From Oscillospiraceae bacterium (GTDB lineage: Bacteria; Bacillota; Clostridia; Oscillospirales; Acutalibacteraceae), in NCBI GenBank assembly GCA_910574935.1, contig CAJTCU010000002.1:340901-404900 (forward strand): DNA of 64,000 bases, read 5' to 3'. This document shows positions 21,170-58,468 of this stretch, in pieces. Every line of letters starts with the position of its first letter. The stretch's first letter is position 1. The notes beneath the pieces were generated by a model. It saw only the letters and a program-made list of their open reading frames with translations, was not told the DNA's origin and made no database searches. The position numbers and the translations under genes were made by a program.

Positions 21170-21626
21170 GGAAAAGGGCCGTAGGGATGATCTTCCAAAA
21201 CGATAAGCACGGCGTGCTGTTTGAGAAAGAAATCAAGTACCACAAGGGCTGTTGACGTTGGCTTCGCCAAGTCGCCAAGATCAAGATTCAGAAATATTCC
21301 TGTTTCTGAATCATTCATTTTTTGAGGATTGCCGCGGCTCTTTTGAAGCATAAGGGCAACGCCCGTTGCTTTGATGGCTGACCCCAGGCTCCGGCACCAA
21401 GCTGAGAATCACATCGGTACCAATGAGGTCGACATCGCTGCCATGAAGCCCCGGCATTTGGACGCCATGTCCTATGTCTGCTTCGGGGTTGCCAAGGACA
21501 TCATCACCGGCAGCAGGACCGCCTCGGTCACAGAGCTGGCCGACGCCAGTATGCTGTCCCCTCGGTATTTCCTGGTGATCCAAACCACCATGCTGATCCG
21601 GGGCTACGGACTGAGCGCGGCCAAAT
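21170..21626 (+). repeat. ~455-bp repeat, copy 1 (degenerate mobile-element gene)
   Basis: Closely matches 52590-53036 in the same orientation, by eye over 80% identical. It encodes in frame (from ~21398) HQAENHIGTNEVDIAAMKPRHLDAMSYV and KDIITGSRTASVTELADASMLSPRYFLVIQT, a small protein common in Clostridia conjugative elements. The copy ends at ~21626, where a reversed relaxase fragment begins, and contains a double-hairpin insert at 21258-21312. Confidence 0.75.
21258..21312 (+). repeat. double-hairpin element, copy A
   Basis: TTGGC-TTC-GCCAA (21258-21270), linker GTCGCC, then GATTCAGAAA (21285-21294) pairing with TTTCTGAATC (21303-21312). Same plan as four other copies in the window. Confidence 0.7.
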
Positions 21627-32940: not shown

Positions 32941-33615
32941 ATGAATTACCGCCACGAGTATAAATTTCAGCTAAGCCCTGCCGATTATCTGCCCCTACAA
33001 GCCCGGCTGCGAGCTGTGCTGCCCCATGACCCCCATGCTGGTGAAAACGGCCAGTATAAAATCAGCAGCGTATATTTTGACAGCCCAGATAACCGTGCCC
33101 TACGGGAAAAGCTGGAAGGCCTGCACTGCCGGGAAAAGTTCCGGCTGCGGTGGTACGGCGGGAACACAGAACTGCTTCACCTGGAGAAAAAGGCCAAGCT
33201 GGGCCAGCTGGGCCGCAAAACCGTCTGCCCCCTCAGCCGGACCCAAGCCCTGGCCCTGCTGGCGGATGATCCCCGCTGGCGGCAGGGCCTTAAGGACCCA
33301 CTGGCCGCCGAGCTGGGAGCCAAAATGGCCTGGCAGCAGCTGCGGCCTACTGTTTTGGTGGAGTATGACCGAGAGGCTTTTCTCTTCCCGGCAGGGAATG
33401 TACGGGTTACCCTGGACCGAAATCTGCGCCGGGCCCCGGCCGGGCCAGAGGTCCTTTGGGGCGGCGGGCCCACTATTCCGGCAGGAGAGGGCGTACTGCT
33501 AGAGGTAAAGTACGACCAATTTCTGCCTGGGCTCATCCAAGACCTGGTGCGGCTGGAGGGGCGGCAAGCGCGGGCCTTTTCCAAGTATGCGGCGGCCCGG
33601 CTGATAGATTTTTAG
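32941..33615 (+). CDS. VTC-domain protein (polyphosphate polymerase-like)
   Basis: 224 residues, all VTC domain. Expected tunnel residues are visible: RHEYKF at 4-9, VYFDSP, KFRLRWYG, LHLEKKAK, VLVEYDREAF, VRVTLDRNL and LLEVKYD. In yeast this fold makes polyphosphate from ATP; bacterial stand-alone forms are less studied. ATG follows AAAGGAGGAACC. First of three genes (VTC, DUF4956, CotH) that commonly occur together in Firmicutes. Confidence 0.9.
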   Translation: MNYRHEYKFQLSPADYLPLQARLRAVLPHDPHAGENGQYKISSVYFDSPDNRALREKLEGLHCREKFRLRWYGGNTELLHLEKKAKLGQLGRKTVCPLSRTQALALLADDPRWRQGLKDPLAAELGAKMAWQQLRPTVLVEYDREAFLFPAGNVRVTLDRNLRRAPAGPEVLWGGGPTIPAGEGVLLEVKYDQFLPGLIQDLVRLEGRQARAFSKYAAARLIDF

Positions 33616-51400: not shown

Positions 51401-52105
51401 ATTGCCTCAGAAGTAGATGACAGAGCCTTTGGCGAACTCTTACCTGAATTGAGAATGCAAGATTTCAATGTACCTTTATCGTCACTTTCAGAACATCGAG
51501 TGTTAAAATTGATTTACCTCAAATTTATTCCATTCACTGTCCCACAATATGATGAAATGCAGGACTGCTGTCCAAACCTGTGCGAACCATTCATTTTATG
51601 GAATCAGCGCGCATTTAGAGAGCTTATAAACGACGTTTCGCTAACATCACAGCTCATTGAGAATCTTGTATTGAGTAAGGACAGCGAAAATGAGACTAAG
51701 ATAGAAATCATCAACACATATGGTGCAGAAAGCATGACTCAAAGAATTGCAGAATATTTATGCGCTGCACGATTCGATATCAGCCAAGAGATATTTGATG
51801 CAGCGTGGAATATGCTTGACATCCATAAGCAAGAGAAGCTAATGTTCATGTATTTGGCCATGCTTGATGATAAGAGTCTTGCATCATGTTTTTCTGATTT
51901 AGGGGGAGACTACGCAGATTTTGTAGACAGGATCAGTAGACATAAAGTGGAGCTTAAATGCTCAGACAATAACCGGAGATTGGTCCAAAGGCTGAAGGAG
52001 GTAGATTACATTACGAGTTATTCTGAAGGAAAGAGCGCTAAGAAAGGAAAGGATATTGACCAGGATTGTAAAGTTATTCAGTGTTGGATTAAGGCGGAGG
52101 AATGA
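48416..52105 (+). CDS. YobI-like P-loop NTPase with two membrane helices
   Basis: 1229 residues from ATG 48416, eight bases after GAAAGGA; an ATG at 48410 is too close to that site. Walker A GPYGAGKSS at 64-72; Walker B VFFEDLDRLDDPS at 268-280; two membrane helices at ~155-173 and ~197-217 lie between them, as in KAP-type NTPases. The rest (~450-1229) is helical and repeat-like with no enzyme motif seen. The layout resembles B. subtilis YobI, a family of unknown function. The gene is AT-rich, unlike its neighbours, stands alone, and borders an IS and decayed mobile DNA, so it was probably acquired. A defence role is plausible by analogy with other large membrane-linked NTPases, but not shown. 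Confidence 0.8.
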   Translation: MIKYIRNLHRSANAFYEKRLNLHQPIIGYRDLLPVDDIQNGDEYLNALSWAFKNKRVKNIALAGPYGAGKSSIIESFLKKHWRIRRRSLRISMASFEINSEICNSTEQDDKKHKTPIEKEEIEHGILKQLFYKVGYGKIPQSRYRKLHKISALWTWVKLVFITLLAIPFVYAFKTEFLTEIKESVVSAGESLNLSEVWAIGIFIMLTAAVLGIISYAYKSLLSRYTIRKVSLPSDTVVEGGGEGDESVFSKYLDEIFYFFEVTRYQYVFFEDLDRLDDPSIFVHLRELNTLLNNYDIIHSKLVFVYAVKDDIFSDEDRTKFFDFIIPVVPIINSTNSGEVFTAMLERARQSGTEHCISQEFILDVSPYISDMRVLQNIYNEFLVYKGTIKAGQELELDDEKMMALIVFKNLYPSEFADLQKEKGVVKRAFEDKRSFIATRQKTAQDEIDRLSTLIEEAKADTLHRTKELKAAFLCEITGWKGTAYCIRLDYSTDVYASEIFTGAFDFLSLARKEIYGIRMMDLNGNNRNASCDNFLELCQIYSRRAERIELVEGKEKRKRIEEIAQLKNQQQNIRYKTMRELLTEFKVDAVLSENVMNNKLLSFMLRRGYLDEDYATYINYFKGTSITKSDMNFILAVKNLEMTEFEYPISKTPQVIQRLQPYEFRQKSIYNYALLEELLGTEGESEKRDLFIEQLSDEDERSWAFIDGFIDVTKNLELFITLLAEAWPRMWLYISNRATLSYERKSHYLLVLVRFIDIDSLVAMNRESSLSHFIEENEDSLQRLASVDADKVYSVINWLDLRFDNAIIEKVPREVVDAIIEESRYGINLTMLKRIVKFLNPDLVAGVENRPYSTLNELECDSILQNVRNHIPEFVNEIVAQGSMDDLEDDVADLLERTIDNAMLYDIVLSHETVCFEDILSCCGNLVSDKRDAVQMLWSALLKEDKIYLSWKNIYEYWEQFKFDKVLLEYIENNSDKLKGQSTDFLDDDFIGDFIASEVDDRAFGELLPELRMQDFNVPLSSLSEHRVLKLIYLKFIPFTVPQYDEMQDCCPNLCEPFILWNQRAFRELINDVSLTSQLIENLVLSKDSENETKIEIINTYGAESMTQRIAEYLCAARFDISQEIFDAAWNMLDIHKQEKLMFMYLAMLDDKSLASCFSDLGGDYADFVDRISRHKVELKCSDNNRRLVQRLKEVDYITSYSEGKSAKKGKDIDQDCKVIQCWIKAEE

Positions 52106-52115
52106 GGGTGCAGGC

Positions 52116-52288
52116 ATCTGTTAAGGCAGAGTTCAAATGACGGATTTTCAAAAGCCCGTAAAACCGCATAAATACTGGCTTTTTGGGCCTCCAAACGGCC
52201 TGCGGCATCTTTTAAGTATGGTAAGGCCAGGTTTACACATCTTAACAGATGCCACCCCCAAAATTCCCCGGAATTCCGGGGGTTTTTT
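52116..52288 (+). ncRNA. repeated RNA-like element, copy 1, with terminator
   Basis: GGCATCTGTTAAG (52116-52128) and its complement at 52236-52249 bracket a core CCGCATAAATACTGGCTTTT...GCGGCATCTTTTAAGTATGG. A strong terminator follows: CCCCGG-AATT-CCGGGG plus six T (52266-52288). The core and the hairpin-at-the-end layout recur at 58549-58680. An RNA product is inferred; it could also be a palindromic repeat. Confidence 0.5.
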
Positions 52289-52457
52289 GCGTTCAAGAGG
52301 CCAAAAAGGGACCGCCGCGGCGTGACGTGTTTTGGGGGATGCCATCAGGGAAAACGAGAGTCAGTGCAGAAGAAAACAAAATATTTTTTGTGAAGGGCCA
52401 TGATGAAAATCGTGGTCCTTTTTCTTTTTCCAGAGAAAAATTTAGGAGGTGTGCAGG

Positions 52458-52622
52458 GTGCCAAAGTTTACAGAAAGCAAAACCGATCGGGCCTATGAAA
52501 GTTTCATGAAACAGATCCCAGGCTTCCAGCATGATCCGCCCGAGACTGAAACCAGCCGCAAGGACATGGAGCAGAACAAAAAGCAGAAAGAAGTTCATAA
52601 GGATGATCTTCCGCAACGATAA
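52458..52622 (+). CDS. small mobile-element protein (54 aa)
   Basis: Starts at GTG 52458, eight bases after AGGAGG; begins MPKFTESKTDRAYESFMKQIPG and ends KDDLPQR. Short, charged and soluble; known to me as a recurring small protein of Clostridia integrative elements, no function. It leads into the ~455-bp repeat, overlapping its first bases. Confidence 0.55.
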   Translation: MPKFTESKTDRAYESFMKQIPGFQHDPPETETSRKDMEQNKKQKEVHKDDLPQR

Positions 52623-53036
52623 CCACGGCGTACTGTTCGAGAAAGAAATCAGGTACCACAAGGGCTGTCGACGTTGGCTTCGCCAAGTCGCCAAGATTCA
52701 GAAACAGGAATGTTTCTGAATCTTTCATTTTTTGAGGATTGCCGCAGCCCTTTTTGGAGCATAAGGGCAACGCCCGTTGCTTTGACGGTCGACCCAGGCT
52801 CTGGCATCAGGCCGAGAATCACATCGGGACTAATGAAATCGACATCACTGCCATAAAGCCCAGGCGTTTGGACGCCATGGCCTACGTCTGCTTCACGGTG
52901 GCAAAGGACATCATCACAGGCAGCAGGACGGTATCTCTCACAGAACTGGCCGACACAAGTATGCTCTCCCCCCGGTACTTCCTGGTGATACAGACCGCCA
53001 TGCTGATCCGGGTCTACGGACTGAGTGCGGCCAACC
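52590..53036 (+). repeat. ~455-bp repeat, copy 2
   Basis: Matches 21170-21626 in the same orientation. Here the gene body is better preserved, and its stop at 53077 overlaps the DUF4314 start. Confidence 0.75.
52674..52724 (+). repeat. double-hairpin element, copy B
   Basis: TTGGC-TTC-GCCAA (52674-52686), linker GTCGCC, then AAGATTCAGAAACA (52693-52706), loop GGAA and TGTTTCTGAATCTT (52711-52724): a perfect 14-pair stem. Confidence 0.8.
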
Positions 53037-53077
53037 GGCTGCTATTTACAGAGGGGAGGAAACCGGATGAACTTTGA
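52739..53077 (+). pseudogene. conserved mobile-element protein, 5' part disrupted
   Basis: The frame includes WHQAENHIGTNEIDITAIKPRRLDAMAYVCF, DIITGSRTVSLTELADTSMLSPRYFLVIQT and MLIRVYGLSAANRLLFTEGRKPDEL. No ribosome site precedes it, and a double-hairpin insert and stops lie just upstream, separating it from MIFRNDNHGVLFEKEIRYHKG (52603-52719). Same gene as the copy near 21400. Function unknown. Confidence 0.6.
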
Positions 53078-53399
53078 CAGAAATAAGGTTGAGCTGGTCA
53101 GGCGGCAGTACCCGGTGGGGACGAGAATCCAACTGCACAGGCTGTGCAATGATGAGCGGGGGATGCCTTCAATATTGCCCTGCGGGCAAATTGCCGAGTT
53201 TCCCTCGACCGCGAGGCGGTCGCCTTTTGCTCCGCAAAAGTACCGGAAAACTCTTGTCCTGTGCGGGAGTGTGATTGGCGTCGATGACCAACCGGCCCTG
53301 CTCATGAAGTGGGACAATGGCAGAGGACTGAGCCTTATGCCGTTCGAGGACAGTTTCACGGTAATCCAGGAGCAGCAGCACGGCACTCTGGACGAGTAG
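53067..53399 (+). CDS. DUF4314 protein with an in-frame insert
   Basis: 110 residues from ATG 53067 after GAGGGGAGG. NFDRNKVELVRRQYPVGTRIQLHRL and VDDQPALLMKWDNGRGLSLMPFEDSF are the two halves of DUF4314. Between them ~30 extra residues (around AEFPSTARRSPFAPQKYRKT) are encoded by a double-hairpin element at 53175-53253 that keeps the frame. Usual members are ~70-80 residues. Role in conjugative elements unknown; whether the insert is tolerated is unknown. Confidence 0.7.
   Translation: MNFDRNKVELVRRQYPVGTRIQLHRLCNDERGMPSILPCGQIAEFPSTARRSPFAPQKYRKTLVLCGSVIGVDDQPALLMKWDNGRGLSLMPFEDSFTVIQEQQHGTLDE
53175..53253 (+). repeat. double-hairpin element, copy C
   Basis: TTGCCC-TGC-GGGCAA (53175-53189), linker ATTGCC, then outer stem GAGTTT (53196-53201) with AAACTC (53248-53253). 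The outer stem encloses GACCGC-GAG-GCGGTC and CTTTTGC-TCC-GCAAAAG, each a perfect hairpin with a three-base loop. Confidence 0.85.
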
Positions 53400-53735
53400 C
53401 TCTATGATAAGCTGTCGCAGGAGCAGGATACCTTTCGGAAAGAACTGCTGGCTCTCCCGCCCGAGGAAATCCTGGATAAGGCTTGGGAATATCTGGTGCG
53501 GGAGGATATCCTGCTCACGATGGAGTACAACGAGCTGGACGATGAACAGGCGAAGGCCCTGTTGGAACTGCCGGACGCCATGTCGGACCTGTACGATACG
53601 GTCAAGGGGAAAGACAGCCGCCAGCAGGAAACCATCTGGCGGGAGATCGAGGAAAGGGCCAATGTGCTGGCAGCGGGAACAACAGCCCCACAGAAAGCGG
53701 GATATGGAATGGTAACAGACAGGGCGGCGGGATAG
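53400..53735 (+). pseudogene. DUF3848 fragment without a start codon
   Basis: The frame continues from DUF4314 past one TAG (53397-53399): LYDKLSQEQDTFRKELLALPPEEILDKAWEYLVREDIL and NELDDEQAKALLELPDAMSDLY are DUF3848. No ATG, GTG or TTG with a ribosome site precedes it. Either the TAG is a nonsense mutation in a fused gene or the real start has been lost. Confidence 0.6.
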
Positions 53736-53793
53736 TCAATGCTTATCTCCGCCGTTTTGTTTTAGACTTTTATGAGAGCGATAAACTGGAATT

Positions 53794-54273
53794 TTAGGAA
53801 TTTACCCATACATCTATTTCGTCCTTCGTTGGGACTTCAAAGATAGACTCGAATTTATCAGCAAGTCCTTCATCAACATAATACGCATCAGATTCGTGAT
53901 TTAAAACATCCTGATTTCTTTTTTGAATTCTTCTGTTCCACTCAACCGAATCAACATCCAAATAATAGAATTCATAATCAATATGTCTTGATGTGTAATA
54001 CTCTTTCGCGTATTCACGTTCTTTCCTGGTCCAGAACCCCCAGTCTAAAACCACGTTAATTCCTGATTCTGCAATCTCAACAGATTTTGCATATTGGTAT
54101 GCCTTTATTCTTTCAACATAGTAATCATGTTTTTCTCCGGCATCCTGTCCAAACACCGACAACATTATTTCATCAATTGAAAGAATCACTGCTTTGTGTG
54201 TTGATCTGATTTTATTGGCATAAGTACTTTTTCCGCTGCAGAGCTTGCCACACATAATAAAAACCTTAGACAT
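53794..54273 (-). CDS. P-loop kinase, zeta-toxin/AAA_33-like
   Basis: 159 residues from ATG 54273, behind GGAGGGACTA; a start four codons earlier is less well placed. Walker A GKLCSGKST (~9-17), then SIDEIMLSVFG, VVLDWGFWTRKEREYAKEY and RRIQKRNQD, the layout of small-substrate kinases and zeta toxins. No antitoxin gene is adjacent. AT-rich, so likely acquired. Substrate unknown. Confidence 0.75.
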   Translation of the reverse strand: MSKVFIMCGKLCSGKSTYANKIRSTHKAVILSIDEIMLSVFGQDAGEKHDYYVERIKAYQYAKSVEIAESGINVVLDWGFWTRKEREYAKEYYTSRHIDYEFYYLDVDSVEWNRRIQKRNQDVLNHESDAYYVDEGLADKFESIFEVPTKDEIDVWVNS

Positions 54274-54372
54274 TAGTCCCTCCATAAATATCGATTTATC
54301 GGTTTGTACTGGGGGAAATTATACCATACCCAATTACGAAAAGCAATCCCCCGTTCTACGTCCGTTCCGCCT

Positions 54373-54455
54373 ATCCAGACGGTCAAGGGGCGAGTAGTAT
54401 TTTTTCGCAAAGAACGCGAAAAAATCTCCGCTCTTAACCCCTTGACCGTCTGGAT
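54373..54455. repeat. 83-bp near-palindrome with two nested stems
   Basis: ATCCAGACGGTCAAGGGG (54373-54390) and its perfect complement (54438-54455) form an 18-pair outer stem. TTTTTTCGC (54400-54408) and GCGAAAAAA (54416-54424) form an inner stem. TTTTT follows the right arm. Confidence 0.85.
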
Positions 54456-54458
54456 TTT

Positions 54459-54651
54459 TGCCGTTGCCATAGCGTTGCAAAGGCCCTGTGGCTGCTGTCC
54501 TACAATACTGCGACACCATCCGGGCGCTGTACAGTGTGCCGGGCATTTACATCGAGAAAATCGAGCGCATCAACAATCTGGCCCAGCGGTACGACCCGGG
54601 GACGGTCTATGAGGAGGTCTTTATTTCAAACTACGACCCCTTGCATTGCTA
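54459..54651 (+). pseudogene. 3' fragment of a mobile-element protein
   Basis: After a stop near 54468 the frame reads GPVAAVLQYCDTIRALYSVPG, IEKIERINNLAQRYDPGTVYEEVF and ISNYDPLHC then stops. Coding-like but with no start; it abuts the 83-bp palindrome. Family not recognised. Confidence 0.4.
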
Positions 54652-55389
54652 ATTTTCACTGAGCACCTTAACTGTATCCACAACACTCACCTGCCCTGCC
54701 TCCCGAAAGAACTGGCTGAGCAGATGGACATGCCCGGCGCCTATCAGCAGCAGTACCCGCTCGTCCGGCGCCTGAAACAATGCCGTGGTATTCTTCCAGA
54801 TGCGCAGGTTGCGGTAATACCAGTACTGGCCCACCCAGCCCGCACCTACTGGCCAAGTGCCATCGTCCAGCTTGGCGAATTCCAAGTATGTCTGATGGTC
54901 TGCCGCACAGTACTCTGGCCGGTTCATATAAATGAAGTGCTCCAGTAGGGTGGAAGCTTCCATGTGCTGCTGCTCCTGGTTAAACCTCTCCTCATTGTGG
55001 CGATTTAGTTCCTCAACATGCTCTGAAGGGTTATCCGCCATCCACTGGAAGACGCTGCCCACGCCAGGCACCGCCATGTTCCAATCCACGCAGTGCAGCC
55101 GGTCATGCCTCATATGCTCCGCCAGCCGGAACCCAAGCTGGTATACCTCACTGATGCCTAGTTCCTTTTCCCTGCGCAGATAAGCCTGGTATTCCTCCTG
55201 CAGCTGGCCACTGTATTCCTGGGCATCCTCCACTGCTATCTTAGTAGGCTTGAAATGTGCCAGGACTTCCACCAGCTTCAACACCTCCTGCTGACGCTGG
55301 CTTGAGAGGATGTCCGATTTGAGCTTGAACTGATCGCTGTTTCCGAAGCTTTTGAAATGAAATGTCCCCAATATCATAAGTTCCTGCAT
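54649..55389 (-). CDS. DUF5694 protein (TraB/GumN-like)
   Basis: 246 residues from ATG 55389, seven bases after GGAGG. MILGTFHFKS at the start, KIAVEDAQEY, HCVDWNMAVP and LLLIGAGHVHLLSQFFREAG at the end are the GTFHF/GAGH signature of DUF5694, a relative of TraB/GumN domains whose His/Glu residues suggest metal-dependent hydrolysis. Complete and probably expressed. Role unknown; it sits alone within decayed mobile DNA. Confidence 0.82.
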   Translation of the reverse strand: MQELMILGTFHFKSFGNSDQFKLKSDILSSQRQQEVLKLVEVLAHFKPTKIAVEDAQEYSGQLQEEYQAYLRREKELGISEVYQLGFRLAEHMRHDRLHCVDWNMAVPGVGSVFQWMADNPSEHVEELNRHNEERFNQEQQHMEASTLLEHFIYMNRPEYCAADHQTYLEFAKLDDGTWPVGAGWVGQYWYYRNLRIWKNTTALFQAPDERVLLLIGAGHVHLLSQFFREAGQVSVVDTVKVLSEN

Positions 55390-55647
55390 AGTTTGGCCTC
55401 CAATTATTTTTCGTTTATTATACAATATTTATTATAGAAAAGCAATAACAGGAGCTGCCATTGAGGACACCGTAAGGTAATTGTGATTTTTATTATCTGC
55501 TTGAACGTATCCTTTCCATAGTTATGCAGCCTTTCCCAAATGGCCGCCAGCGAGGGGCTGTTCAGCGGTACATCGGCCACCACCTTTGCGCCCAACGAGG
55601 CCATGACCCGAGGGATGTTTGTGGCCGTGCTGGGGAACAAGACCAAA

Positions 55648-55665
55648 TTTCACTCATGAGTGAAA
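55648..55665. repeat. 18-bp perfect palindrome
   Basis: TTTCACTCATGAGTGAAA, inside the interruption of the SLH gene. It may be a hairpin or a binding site; it is followed by CTTTTTTGA. Confidence 0.7.
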
Positions 55666-55705
55666 CTTTTTTGATTTAATACTCAAACCCCATAATAGAT
55701 GCTAA

Positions 55706-55756
55706 GAGTTTTACGAAGTAAAACTCGGCAACTTAACCGAACGAAAGTGAGGTTAA
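55706..55756 (-). repeat. double-hairpin element, copy D (reversed)
   Basis: GAGTTTTAC-GAA-GTAAAACTC (55706-55726), linker GGCAAC (complement GTTGCC), then TTAACC (55733-55738) with GGTTAA (55751-55756). Read on the minus strand it has the same order as the other copies. Confidence 0.8.
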
Positions 55757-56315
55757 TGTTGGCGGCAGCGGCGGAAAGCTGGACCCCAGCGGCACAGCCA
55801 CCAGGGCGCAGGTGGCGCAGATCTTCTACAGCAGCCGGGAACTGCTGGCGAACGGAAGTAGTGGGGACCCCCAGCCGCCTGCTCCCTCTCCCAGCCCGGA
55901 TGTAACGCCCAGCCCCTCGCCTTCTCCCAGCCCGGATGCGCCGAAGATTGAGATTACAGACGAGGTCAGGGATAAGCTCAAGCCCAATCAGGACCCGGAG
56001 AAGATTCTGGATTATGTGTTGAATGGGAAAAACGATGACCCCACTTTCTCCTATGATGGCACGACCGCTAAGTGGGACCCCACACTGCTGGATTCATCGG
56101 ATTGTGCTATCGTCCCAGCGGGGAGTTGGGAAACGGCAAAGGAAGAAGACGGATATTCCGTCTTACTCTACCACCCAGCAGATAAACCTGACAGCCAGAA
56201 AATGCAAGAAATAAAAGCGGCGCTCAACCTGACCCGCCCGGTTTCCCGGACTCCGATGAGGAAGAAGATCAGGAGTACGGCGGCATGGTAATGAATATGT
56301 AGGGGAGGGAGCATC

Positions 56316-57257
56316 ATTAGCGCAACGATCGCGGCGGCACTGAAAAAGATAGCGGTTTCACTCCTGCTGGACAAGCGGAATTGGGACAAGATCGTCTGCC
56401 TGATTCTGGCCTTTTTCGCAATCTTCATACTGCCCGGCGCGGCGGTAGCGTCCTTTTTCAGTCGGGACGATATCGACTTTGCAGCGCCTGGACTGACCGA
56501 AGAAATAATTCAAGACCTTACCCCGGAGGAAGTGGCGGAGCTGCAATTTGTGGAGGATACCGTCAAAGCCCTCCACTCCGCTATGACCGGCAGAACGCCT
56601 GAGCAGATCAAAGCCGCCGAGGTGCTGTACATACTGGCGCTTTCGGAGTATTCCAAAGAGCCTGGGTTTGTTGCAAAGCTGGTGGGGTGTTTCGCGGACG
56701 GTCAGACAGATGAGCAGCTTATTGCCGAGGTCAACGCTGTGTTCGGTACTGACCTTGACCCGGAGGACTTCTCGGCAATCATGAATTACGCCAATCATCA
56801 ACTGGTGGAGGTTGCCAAAGCCCAGCTGGGAAATGTGGGCGGCGAACCCTATTGGAGCTGGTACGGTTTTCCCAGCCGGGTAGAGTGTGTGCGCCCGACA
56901 TTGGACTTCGTCCAAGTCGCCGAGTTTGTCGGCGTTCGCTCCGCGAAGCCGCGCAAACTCTTTGATAGCCATTGTGATTTTTAATTCGCTGTCTGCGGAG
57001 ACTGGGTAGACTGGTTCAAAAACAAAGACCAATGGCTGGAGGGCAGCGCAACCCCGGACTCTGGCTGCATCATTTTCTTTGACTGGCCGGATGAGTACGG
57101 TGTCCAGGACGGCAGTTCCGACCATGTAGGCATCGTGGAAAAGGTCGAAGGAGGCCGGGTGTACACCATTGAGGGAAACTCCGGCGATGCCTGTGAGCGG
57201 AACAGTTACCCCATCGGCAACTACCAGATTTTGGGGTATGGAACGCCAATGTTGTAA
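56316..57257 (+). pseudogene. CHAP-type cell-wall hydrolase of a conjugative element, active site replaced
   Basis: One frame with a single TAA at 56982. N-terminal membrane helix (KIVCLILAFFAIFILPG), a helical region, then GGEPYWSWYGFPSRVE. The expected next segment with the catalytic Cys (WCACFVSW in relatives) is replaced by a double-hairpin element and a stop. The CHAP domain resumes in the same frame: FAVCGDWVDWF, IIFFDWPDEYG, DHVGIVEKVEGGRVYTIEGNSGD. The start appears as ATT after GGGAGGGAGCATC, so the ATG is also lost. Relatives cut peptidoglycan during conjugation. Confidence 0.75.
56901..56960 (+). repeat. double-hairpin element, copy E
   Basis: TTGGAC-TTC-GTCCAA (56901-56915), linker GTCGCC, then GAGTTTG (56922-56928) with CAAACTC (56954-56960), enclosing TTCGC-TCC-GCGAA. 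Confidence 0.85.
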
Positions 57258-57367
57258 AGGATTGGAAGTGATATAATGCCAGATGATAACAAAGCAAGTG
57301 GTACTACCTACTATCCCATCAGGACGTCGGGAGGCAGATGTACTAAAATAATAAGGAGGTTCACGTT

Positions 57368-57535
57368 ATGGAAAACACAAGAACAATGGCCATTCAGATG
57401 CCCGAGGAAACCTATCAGCGGCTGAAAGCCTACCTCAAGCGGCATCAGGTCAAGCAGAAGGATTTCGTCACCCGGCTGGTGGAGCGGGCGATGGAGAAGG
57501 AGGACGGCTCCGCGCCGGAGGGCGGCAATGAGTAG
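57368..57535 (+). CDS. small ribbon-helix-helix-like protein (55 aa)
   Basis: ATG 57368 lies eight bases after AAGGAGG. MAIQMPEETYQRLKAYLKRHQVKQKDFVTRLVERAME fits a ribbon-helix-helix regulator: one strand, then two helices. Common as the last small gene of conjugation modules. May control the Rpn-type gene that follows, or its former element. Confidence 0.7.
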   Translation: MENTRTMAIQMPEETYQRLKAYLKRHQVKQKDFVTRLVERAMEKEDGSAPEGGNE

Positions 57536-57545
57536 GCAAAAACAG

Positions 57546-57574
57546 TTGCTTTTTAGGCCGGATTCGGGTATAAT
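57546..57574 (+). promoter_or_regulatory. promoter of the PD-(D/E)XK gene
   Basis: TTGCTT (57546-57551), 17-base spacer, TATAAT (57569-57574), 25 bases before the GTG start. Confidence 0.7.
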
Positions 57575-57598
57575 ATTTGTAGAGAGAAGGTGGTTCCC

Positions 57599-58468
57599 GT
57601 GAGCGTCAGCATAGAAGATATCAACTTGTCCAATGACCTGGTCTTCTCAGAGGTCATGCGCCAGCCAGAGAATGTCAAGCCGTTTCTGGAGGCGGTGCTT
57701 GAGAAGAAGATTGCGGATATCACCTATATCGAGCGTCAGCAGGACATGAAGGACGGCATCAACCTACACGGTATCCGGCTGGATGTGGCTTTGGCCGACG
57801 CCGATGAAACTCGCTATGACATTGAGATGCAGACCGGCCACGCATATGATTTGGAGCGGCGTATCCGATTCTACCAGAGCAGCATTGACCGCAGGACGCT
57901 GGAACCTGCTGAGAGCTACCGGCAGCTCAAAGAAAGTTACATTATTTTCATCTGCACGGACGACTACTATGGCCGGGGACTGGCGCTTTATAAGCGCAAG
58001 AGCGTTATCGAGGGCGCTGAGGACCTGACGTACAAAGACGGCTCTCATGCCTACATTCTGAATGCCGCGTTTACGGTTAGGAACATGAGCGAACCGGCGC
58101 TGGAGTTTCTGCGGTATGTCAACGCGAGGTATCGAAAGCTGGCAATTGACATTTCAGGCTCGAAGTATTTATCGCAAATAGACCGGGCGGTGGAGGACAT
58201 AAAAGCCGACAAAGGAAAGGTGGAGAGATTTATGACCCTGGCGGCGAAGCTGAAAGATGTGCGGATCGACGCGCGTAGGGAAGGGTTTGAGGAAGGTATA
58301 AAAAAAGGTATAGAAAAAGGCCGCGTAGCTGGGCGGGCTGAAGGCGAGCGTAGTGCAATGGTTGGCCTGATCAAACGGATGCTGGAGCGGCATAAATCTC
58401 TGGAAGAAATTGCCGATATTTGTGCCCTGGATCTGGATGAAGTCAAAAAAATCGCGGAGGGTGAGTAG
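57599..58468 (+). CDS. PD-(D/E)XK nuclease-family transposase-like (Rpn family) protein
   Basis: 289 residues from GTG 57599, eight bases after AGAAGG; another GTG lies three codons up. NDLVFSEVMRQPENVKPFLEAVLEKKI, then the nuclease core GIRLDVALADADETRYDIEMQ (Asp, then Glu-X-Gln in place of E-X-K), HAYDLERRIRFYQSSID, and ESYIIFICTDDYYGRGLALYK. The Lys-rich EGIKKGIEKGRVAGRAEGER tail is family-typical. Rpn proteins nick DNA and promote recA-independent recombination; some act in phage defence. Own promoter. Confidence 0.88.
   Translation: MSVSIEDINLSNDLVFSEVMRQPENVKPFLEAVLEKKIADITYIERQQDMKDGINLHGIRLDVALADADETRYDIEMQTGHAYDLERRIRFYQSSIDRRTLEPAESYRQLKESYIIFICTDDYYGRGLALYKRKSVIEGAEDLTYKDGSHAYILNAAFTVRNMSEPALEFLRYVNARYRKLAIDISGSKYLSQIDRAVEDIKADKGKVERFMTLAAKLKDVRIDARREGFEEGIKKGIEKGRVAGRAEGERSAMVGLIKRMLERHKSLEEIADICALDLDEVKKIAEGE

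Follow-up and report, generated by a model that had tools for sequence, protein, structure and literature searches.

The subject of this work is a small double-hairpin element present in five copies (A to E) in a stretch of 64,000 nucleotides (64 kb), hereafter the window, from an Oscillospiraceae bacterium (contig CAJTCU010000002.1, positions 340,901–404,900). Our analysis indicates, with a probability that we put at roughly 0.8, that the copies belong to a non-autonomous mobile DNA element of ~50–100 nt, which resembles miniature inverted-repeat transposable elements (MITEs), repetitive extragenic palindromes (REPs) and Rickettsia palindromic elements (RPEs) and has spread through a genus, apparently Acutalibacter. 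This reading follows from the shared fold, from dispersed copies with unrelated flanks, from pairs of filled and empty sites, and from the in-frame survival of copies inside genes.

The copies were compared by position, fold and core motif, and all five that a first-pass annotation had placed in the window were recovered, at the same positions or a few bases off. They share a plan consisting of a 4-bp foot stem whose base is closed by C.G or T.G, a single-purine bulge on the 5′ side, a TT...AA stem, an unpaired CC and a second stem. Copy B (52669–52726, + strand) is composed of the foot stem CGAC/GTCG, a bulged G, the hairpin TTGGC-TTC-GCCAA, CC and stem 2 with the arms AAGATTCAGAAA...TTTCTGAATCTT. 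Copy E (56896–56962, +) has the same foot stem with a bulged A, followed by TTGGAC-TTC-GTCCAA, CC, and a GAGTTT...AAACTC stem that holds an inner hairpin. Copy D (55704–55761, − strand) combines the foot stem CAAC/GTTG and a bulged A with a TTAACC stem, a 12-nt loop, CC and the second hairpin GAGTTTTAC-TTC-GTAAAACTC. Copy C (53170–53255, +) is the long form; its foot stem CAAT/ATTG, bulged A, TTGCCC-TGC-GGGCAA hairpin and CC lead into a stem 2 in which residues 53196–53201 pair with 53248–53253 and enclose two hairpins (53206–53222 and 53224–53240), creating a three-way junction. The arms of stem 2 are GAGTTT...AAACTC in C, D and E. Copy A (21253–21314, +) is the insertion of B in a paralogous gene, with stem 2 inverted relative to B.

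The core motif AARTYGCCRAGWTY occurs five times in the window, exactly at copies A–E, against a mean of 0.02 over 100 shuffles, none of which reached five; the proposal of five copies built on one plan is thus borne out. Several details of that plan required revision. The six-base linker is present in its position, but its first four bases pair as the foot of hairpin 1 and only CC is unpaired. Three-base loops are usual, but the loop of D has 12 bases, and the small perfect hairpin followed by a longer stem carries a purine bulge above the foot and, in C, two further hairpins within stem 2. A looser scan of the window for hairpin 1 followed by GCC returned A–E plus positions 33194 and 59867, both of which lack the remainder of the plan. 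The sense strands of the copies fold better than their own shuffles, with z values of −2.9 to −4.4.

Over 441 aligned bases that include the element, the genes carrying A and B agree at 379, and stem 2 of A, when inverted, matches that of B at 29 of 30 positions. By these alignments, A and B are one insertion present in two paralogous gene copies, so that the window holds four insertion sites rather than five independent ones. Copies B–E are crowded into 4.3 kb of a decaying region. The stretch that holds them is also present in a second genome, G033, where each 3-kb piece compared differs at one position at most.

Copies with the bulged hairpin 1 constitute class I. The comparison of filled with empty sites, which the first-pass annotation had proposed as a check, yielded empty alleles for the window copies B, C and D as well as for related copies in other genomes. 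Contig C10 of the window's own genome contains a paralogous region in which the C site is empty and reads GGGATGCC, with the six bases CCTGTG where the window has 90; the site is also empty in genome G047. The net gain of 84 nt, or 28 codons, is in frame and introduces no stop, and the host gene, which encodes a DUF4314 protein (53067–53399, +), is open across the element. The B site is likewise empty in the C10 paralogue. The genes filled by A and B run into stops at the element, with the frame of A ending there, and the piece of the A/B gene that was tested had no Pfam match. At the D site, 113 bp stand in place of 299 bp of an SLH gene in the C10 paralogue, and the insertion breaks its gene. 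Copy E, judged from the filled allele alone, is located upstream of a CHAP domain and keeps the frame until a stop at 56982–56984, 20 bp past the element. The earlier assignment of the hosts to mobile-element or SLH genes needs correction: D lies in an SLH gene remnant, C in the DUF4314 gene and E just before the CHAP domain. A separate hairpin, GTTTCACTCATGAGTGAAA, adjoins copy D within the SLH gene remnant (about 55648–55667).

In-frame survival is not confined to the window. A phage-type primase of genome G031, with a CHC2 zinc finger and a DUF927 domain, contains two copies in opposite orientations within one open frame of 970 codons. The first adds 18 codons relative to the primases of G009, G287 and G013; the second adds 25 relative to G287 and fewer relative to G009, whose linker is longer. 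Thus copies have survived in frame at three sites, one in the DUF4314 gene and two in the primase. Two further loci, read from filled sites only, have copies in open frames of the prohead protease type (L204 by Pfam match, L205 by similarity). Class I copies also occur in ribosomal RNA (rRNA) regions: one is located in a 16S–23S spacer between two transfer RNA (tRNA) genes (L206) and another precedes a 16S gene by 176 bp (L185).

A second branch, class II, is placed at promoters. Its copies, which share the three-way junction, directly follow a −10 box and end in a second TATAAT-like box. Among eight promoter-branch copies checked for a −35 element, five have at least 5/6 TTGACA letters at a distance of 16–17 bp, and three (L193, L210 and L279) have only 3/6. 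The ruvC promoter is filled in G033; in G017, whose RuvC protein is 87% identical, TTGACT, 17 bases and TATAAT are followed by the sequence that G033 has after its second TATAAT. Similarly, the yebC promoter is filled in G031 and runs on without the element in G018, G009 and G017. When all 31 ruvC and yebC loci were checked with the junction model R2 (described below), 1/16 and 1/15, respectively, were filled within 250 nt before the start, and at two other yebC loci a copy lies some 600–900 bp upstream. A TATAAT-like sequence (at least 5/6 letters) is present within 45 nt on both sides of 21/69 distinct copies, some of which are neighbors in tandem arrays and not independent; in 200 shuffled sets the mean was 3.9 and the maximum 10.

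We examined the distribution of the element with two covariance models. R1 was built from copies E, C and D, with the D loop shortened, and B was left out; R1 nevertheless matches B at 27.6 bits. Under strict filters (E-value ≤ 0.01), R1 matched in 3/250 genomes of the family, and at E-value ≤ 5 it matched in 6/7 chosen genomes; the 21 matches in G033 and the 19 in G031 include many weak ones. Among the R1 matches was the long form, where two hairpins followed by TACC sit inside stem 2, forming the three-way junction. R2, a junction model built from 14 long-form copies, matched at E-value ≤ 0.01 in 21/29 genomes of the genus (14/20 good assemblies), with up to 30 copies per genome and eight in the window's own. 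Thus, the suggested covariance-model search of other genomes did recover further copies with both stems. The junction sequence is homologous at unrelated loci, and the flanks of dispersed copies are unrelated. At E-value ≤ 0.001 and strict filters, R2 matched in 1/391 genomes across the class, this one being the window's own. A single copy, ~70 bp away from a tRNA gene, lies in G066, a genome from a different genus of the family; R2 covered the genus and, strictly, the class, and absence outside the genus is accordingly not firm for the family as a whole.

Simpler searches yielded less. Early narrow patterns gave one match in the window's own genome and two in 30 genomes, both in the window; the short motif alone matched in 23/40 genomes, mostly near chance level, and a junction pattern matched three stretches in named genomes. 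In viral contigs, a loose pattern returned at least 120 stretches and three stricter patterns none. A structure scan of 153 loci found a hairpin before GCCGAGTTT in three viral ones (L116, L130 and L150), which were rejected: their stems are short, with wobble pairs and no TT...AA plan, and their number is about that expected by chance. Searching plasmids and phages with copy C by blastn gave short, chance-like matches only (3 and 2 records). G033 also has matches to hairpin 1 only (L189, L191, L192, L195, L196 and L199), which were left aside because they may be unrelated; in L191, L195 and L196, the lone hairpin 1 is part of an extended sequence that these loci share in front of unrelated genes, and these may form a separate repeat family.

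Several genomes contain arrays of ~100-nt junction units. Tandem junction arrays with periods of ~100–115 nt are present at L286, L287, L288, L289 and L290, and in L286, L289 and L290 each unit has a −10-like box of its own at its end. At L188, L218 and L294, the 3′ side of the junction carries a short hairpin with a conserved GCCTGAA loop and variable arms, followed by TGATTACATA.

The pairing of the stems is preserved by compensating changes, as the first-pass annotation had claimed. Two-sided changes number 49 cells versus 9.8 after shuffling in 23 R1-fitted rows, and 48 versus 16.5 in 14 junction rows; the latter, as well as 15 sources of the R1-fitted set and the 28 foot-stem rows, were hand-picked from larger match lists. 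After nine of those 28 were dropped, in which another hairpin had been chosen or the reading had no bulge, the foot stem was fully Watson-Crick in 17/19 readable class I rows, in seven different forms. Wobble pairs are scarce. In 68 distinct junction rows, taken from 116 matches (99 after removal of opposite-strand overlaps), G.T makes up 18/1454 standard pairs (1.2%) and 18/144 non-Watson-Crick cells, which is no more than chance, whereas in ten tRNA genes it accounts for 15/205 pairs (7.3%) and all 15 non-Watson-Crick cells; this control is small, and the junction alignment counted was fitted to its own model. The compensation is almost wholly Watson-Crick and points to folding at the DNA level. 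As selection on an RNA should pass G.U pairs, which the junction set does not, DNA folding or arm-to-arm repair provides the better fit. The suggestion of a miniature mobile RNA or DNA element survives the search for further copies and for empty alleles, and the scarce G.U pairs favor DNA over RNA folding. This bias suggests a simple way to separate DNA-level from RNA-level structure in repeats.

These counts bear directly on an alternative in which the copies are structured RNAs under selection (5′ leaders, processing sites or small RNAs) that function as regulatory parts of host transcripts. A conserved fold with compensating changes, the sense orientation of the promoter branch at the start of transcripts and the copies near rRNA and tRNA genes would all suit such a role. 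However, G.T is no commoner than other mismatches, near relatives lack copies (as the ruvC and yebC loci illustrate) and in-gene copies stand in both orientations. Moreover, Rfam 15 gave nothing above the gathering threshold in window positions 52000–58000 and, at ten element loci, matched only the rRNA and tRNA genes. We therefore consider an RNA function improbable. A translational-bypass insert skipped by ribosomes, which had also been proposed, is barely credible: in-gene hairpins with reading intact on both sides are what it predicts, but copy C and the two primase copies are in frame, contain no stop and can be read without any bypass, and A and B break the frame, as D breaks its gene. 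It is highly unlikely, too, that the copies are scars of local recombination or template switching, palindromic by accident and unrelated to a mobile element. The clustering of four copies in the decaying region, the inverted stem 2 of A versus B and the replacement of a larger gene segment at D could be so explained; against it speak the homology of junction sequences between unrelated loci across many genomes, the −10 box insertions that leave the flanks otherwise intact, and the empty sites. The recombination hot spot considered earlier finds no support beyond the local decay around A/B and D.

If the element is mobile, an enzyme supplied in trans would recognize the fold, probably on single-stranded DNA. 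The stems stay perfect, which may mean that the folded DNA is the substrate or that one arm is repaired from the other. A Y1 (TnpA/RAYT-like) transposase is a candidate, with the element as a REP-type relic: bulged hairpins, heterogeneous stems, and intragenic and tandem copies are reminiscent of REPs as described in PMC3733652, and Y1 genes are present in G031, G009, G010 and G001. Yet the Y1 domain (PF01797) is absent from 5/9 genomes searched (G000, G033, G006, G007 and G066), the first four of which hold 8, 12, 17 and 13 junction matches, and this absence alongside copies rules out Y1 as the present driver there. A past loss of the gene is possible in these genomes; overall, we regard a Y1-moved relic as doubtful.

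Several observations weigh against a mobile element and should be set beside the evidence above. The absence of Y1 from those five genomes is one, and the Y1 genes that were found are IS200-like, with ends unrelated to the element, so that no transposase is linked to it. At those sites inside genes that were read, no target duplication was seen. All promoter-branch copies read are oriented alike relative to the promoter, and this would fit an RNA function as well. The strict R1 and R2 filters miss copies (G001 has none by R1 and 14 by R2), leaving the range uncertain. Finally, no transposition was observed.

With a mobile element as the preferred reading, a fuller scenario can be put forward tentatively. 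In open promoter complexes, the DNA of the −10 region is single-stranded, and we conjecture that a single-strand element could enter there. The element might be what is left of a single-strand DNA transposon. Its promoter branch would aim at the melted −10 region of such complexes, re-create a −10 box on either side and build up tandem promoter–hairpin arrays, and a sister branch would insert into genes and rRNA operons; recognition would be by shape (bulged hairpin and three-way junction) and not by sequence. We rate this scenario as possible, though on balance improbable.

Comparison with published systems (PMC10969869, PMC2229807 and PMC3733652) shows that the element shares behavior with several known kinds of repeat. 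Like RPEs, it comprises small palindromic, in-frame inserts in unrelated genes and RNA-gene regions, with no transposase of their own (PMC10969869, PMC2229807); insertion in frame in unrelated genes was found here in the DUF4314 gene and twice in the primase, although A/B and D break their genes. Unlike RPEs, which by description form one long stem-loop with terminal inverted repeats, it combines a bulged hairpin with either a second stem or a three-way junction, and its arms vary freely. With REPs of the GTAG and CGTC super-families it shares palindromes, heterogeneous stems, clustering and an occasional location inside genes (PMC3733652), and CGTC REPs also have no dedicated transposase (PMC3733652). 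REPs, however, are 20–40 bp with an unpaired tag (PMC3733652), whereas the element has two structural domains, and in a by-eye comparison with the text of PMC3733652 no consistent GTAG or CGTC unpaired tag was recognized among the copies read. Bacterial MITEs (Correia/NEMIS, RUP and CIR) are likewise ~100 bp and non-autonomous, and include promoter motifs (Correia) or gene-fused copies (PMC2229807); drawings of CIR RNAs show two arms with a linker between them (PMC2229807). The copies observed here are likewise short, dispersed and non-autonomous, and both filled and empty sites are found. In contrast to MITEs, no common terminal inverted repeat was seen in the element, the copies read consisting of two separate palindromic domains with no repeat pairing end to end, and one of its branches stands at −10 boxes. 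As to direct repeats of the target, the promoter branch has TATAAT-like boxes at both ends (the 21/69 copies above), and none were seen at the in-gene sites read.

Taken together, the copies look like a known kind of tiny mobile DNA (MITE/REP/RPE) and apparently represent a new branch with an unusual architecture. In the available portions of the three papers, we came across neither the two-domain fold nor the bulged foot nor the −10 placement. Titles and abstracts on Acutalibacter repeats, promoter-box insertion, in-frame palindromes, MITEs of the family and three-way-junction elements gave no match, most subscription papers lying outside this coverage. An element that is seemingly recognized by shape and not by sequence would extend, in gut Firmicutes, a class of bacterial mobile DNA about which little is known, and the natural filled and empty pairs offer material for testing how a mobile element can insert into a −10 box or a functional gene and leave it intact.

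Two other repeats were noted in the window. At 54373–54455, two perfectly matching 18-bp inverted arms flank a 47-nt spacer, a repeat that by eye is unrelated to the element, and a self-blastn comparison revealed a tandem repeat with a period of ~99 nt at positions 1–725.

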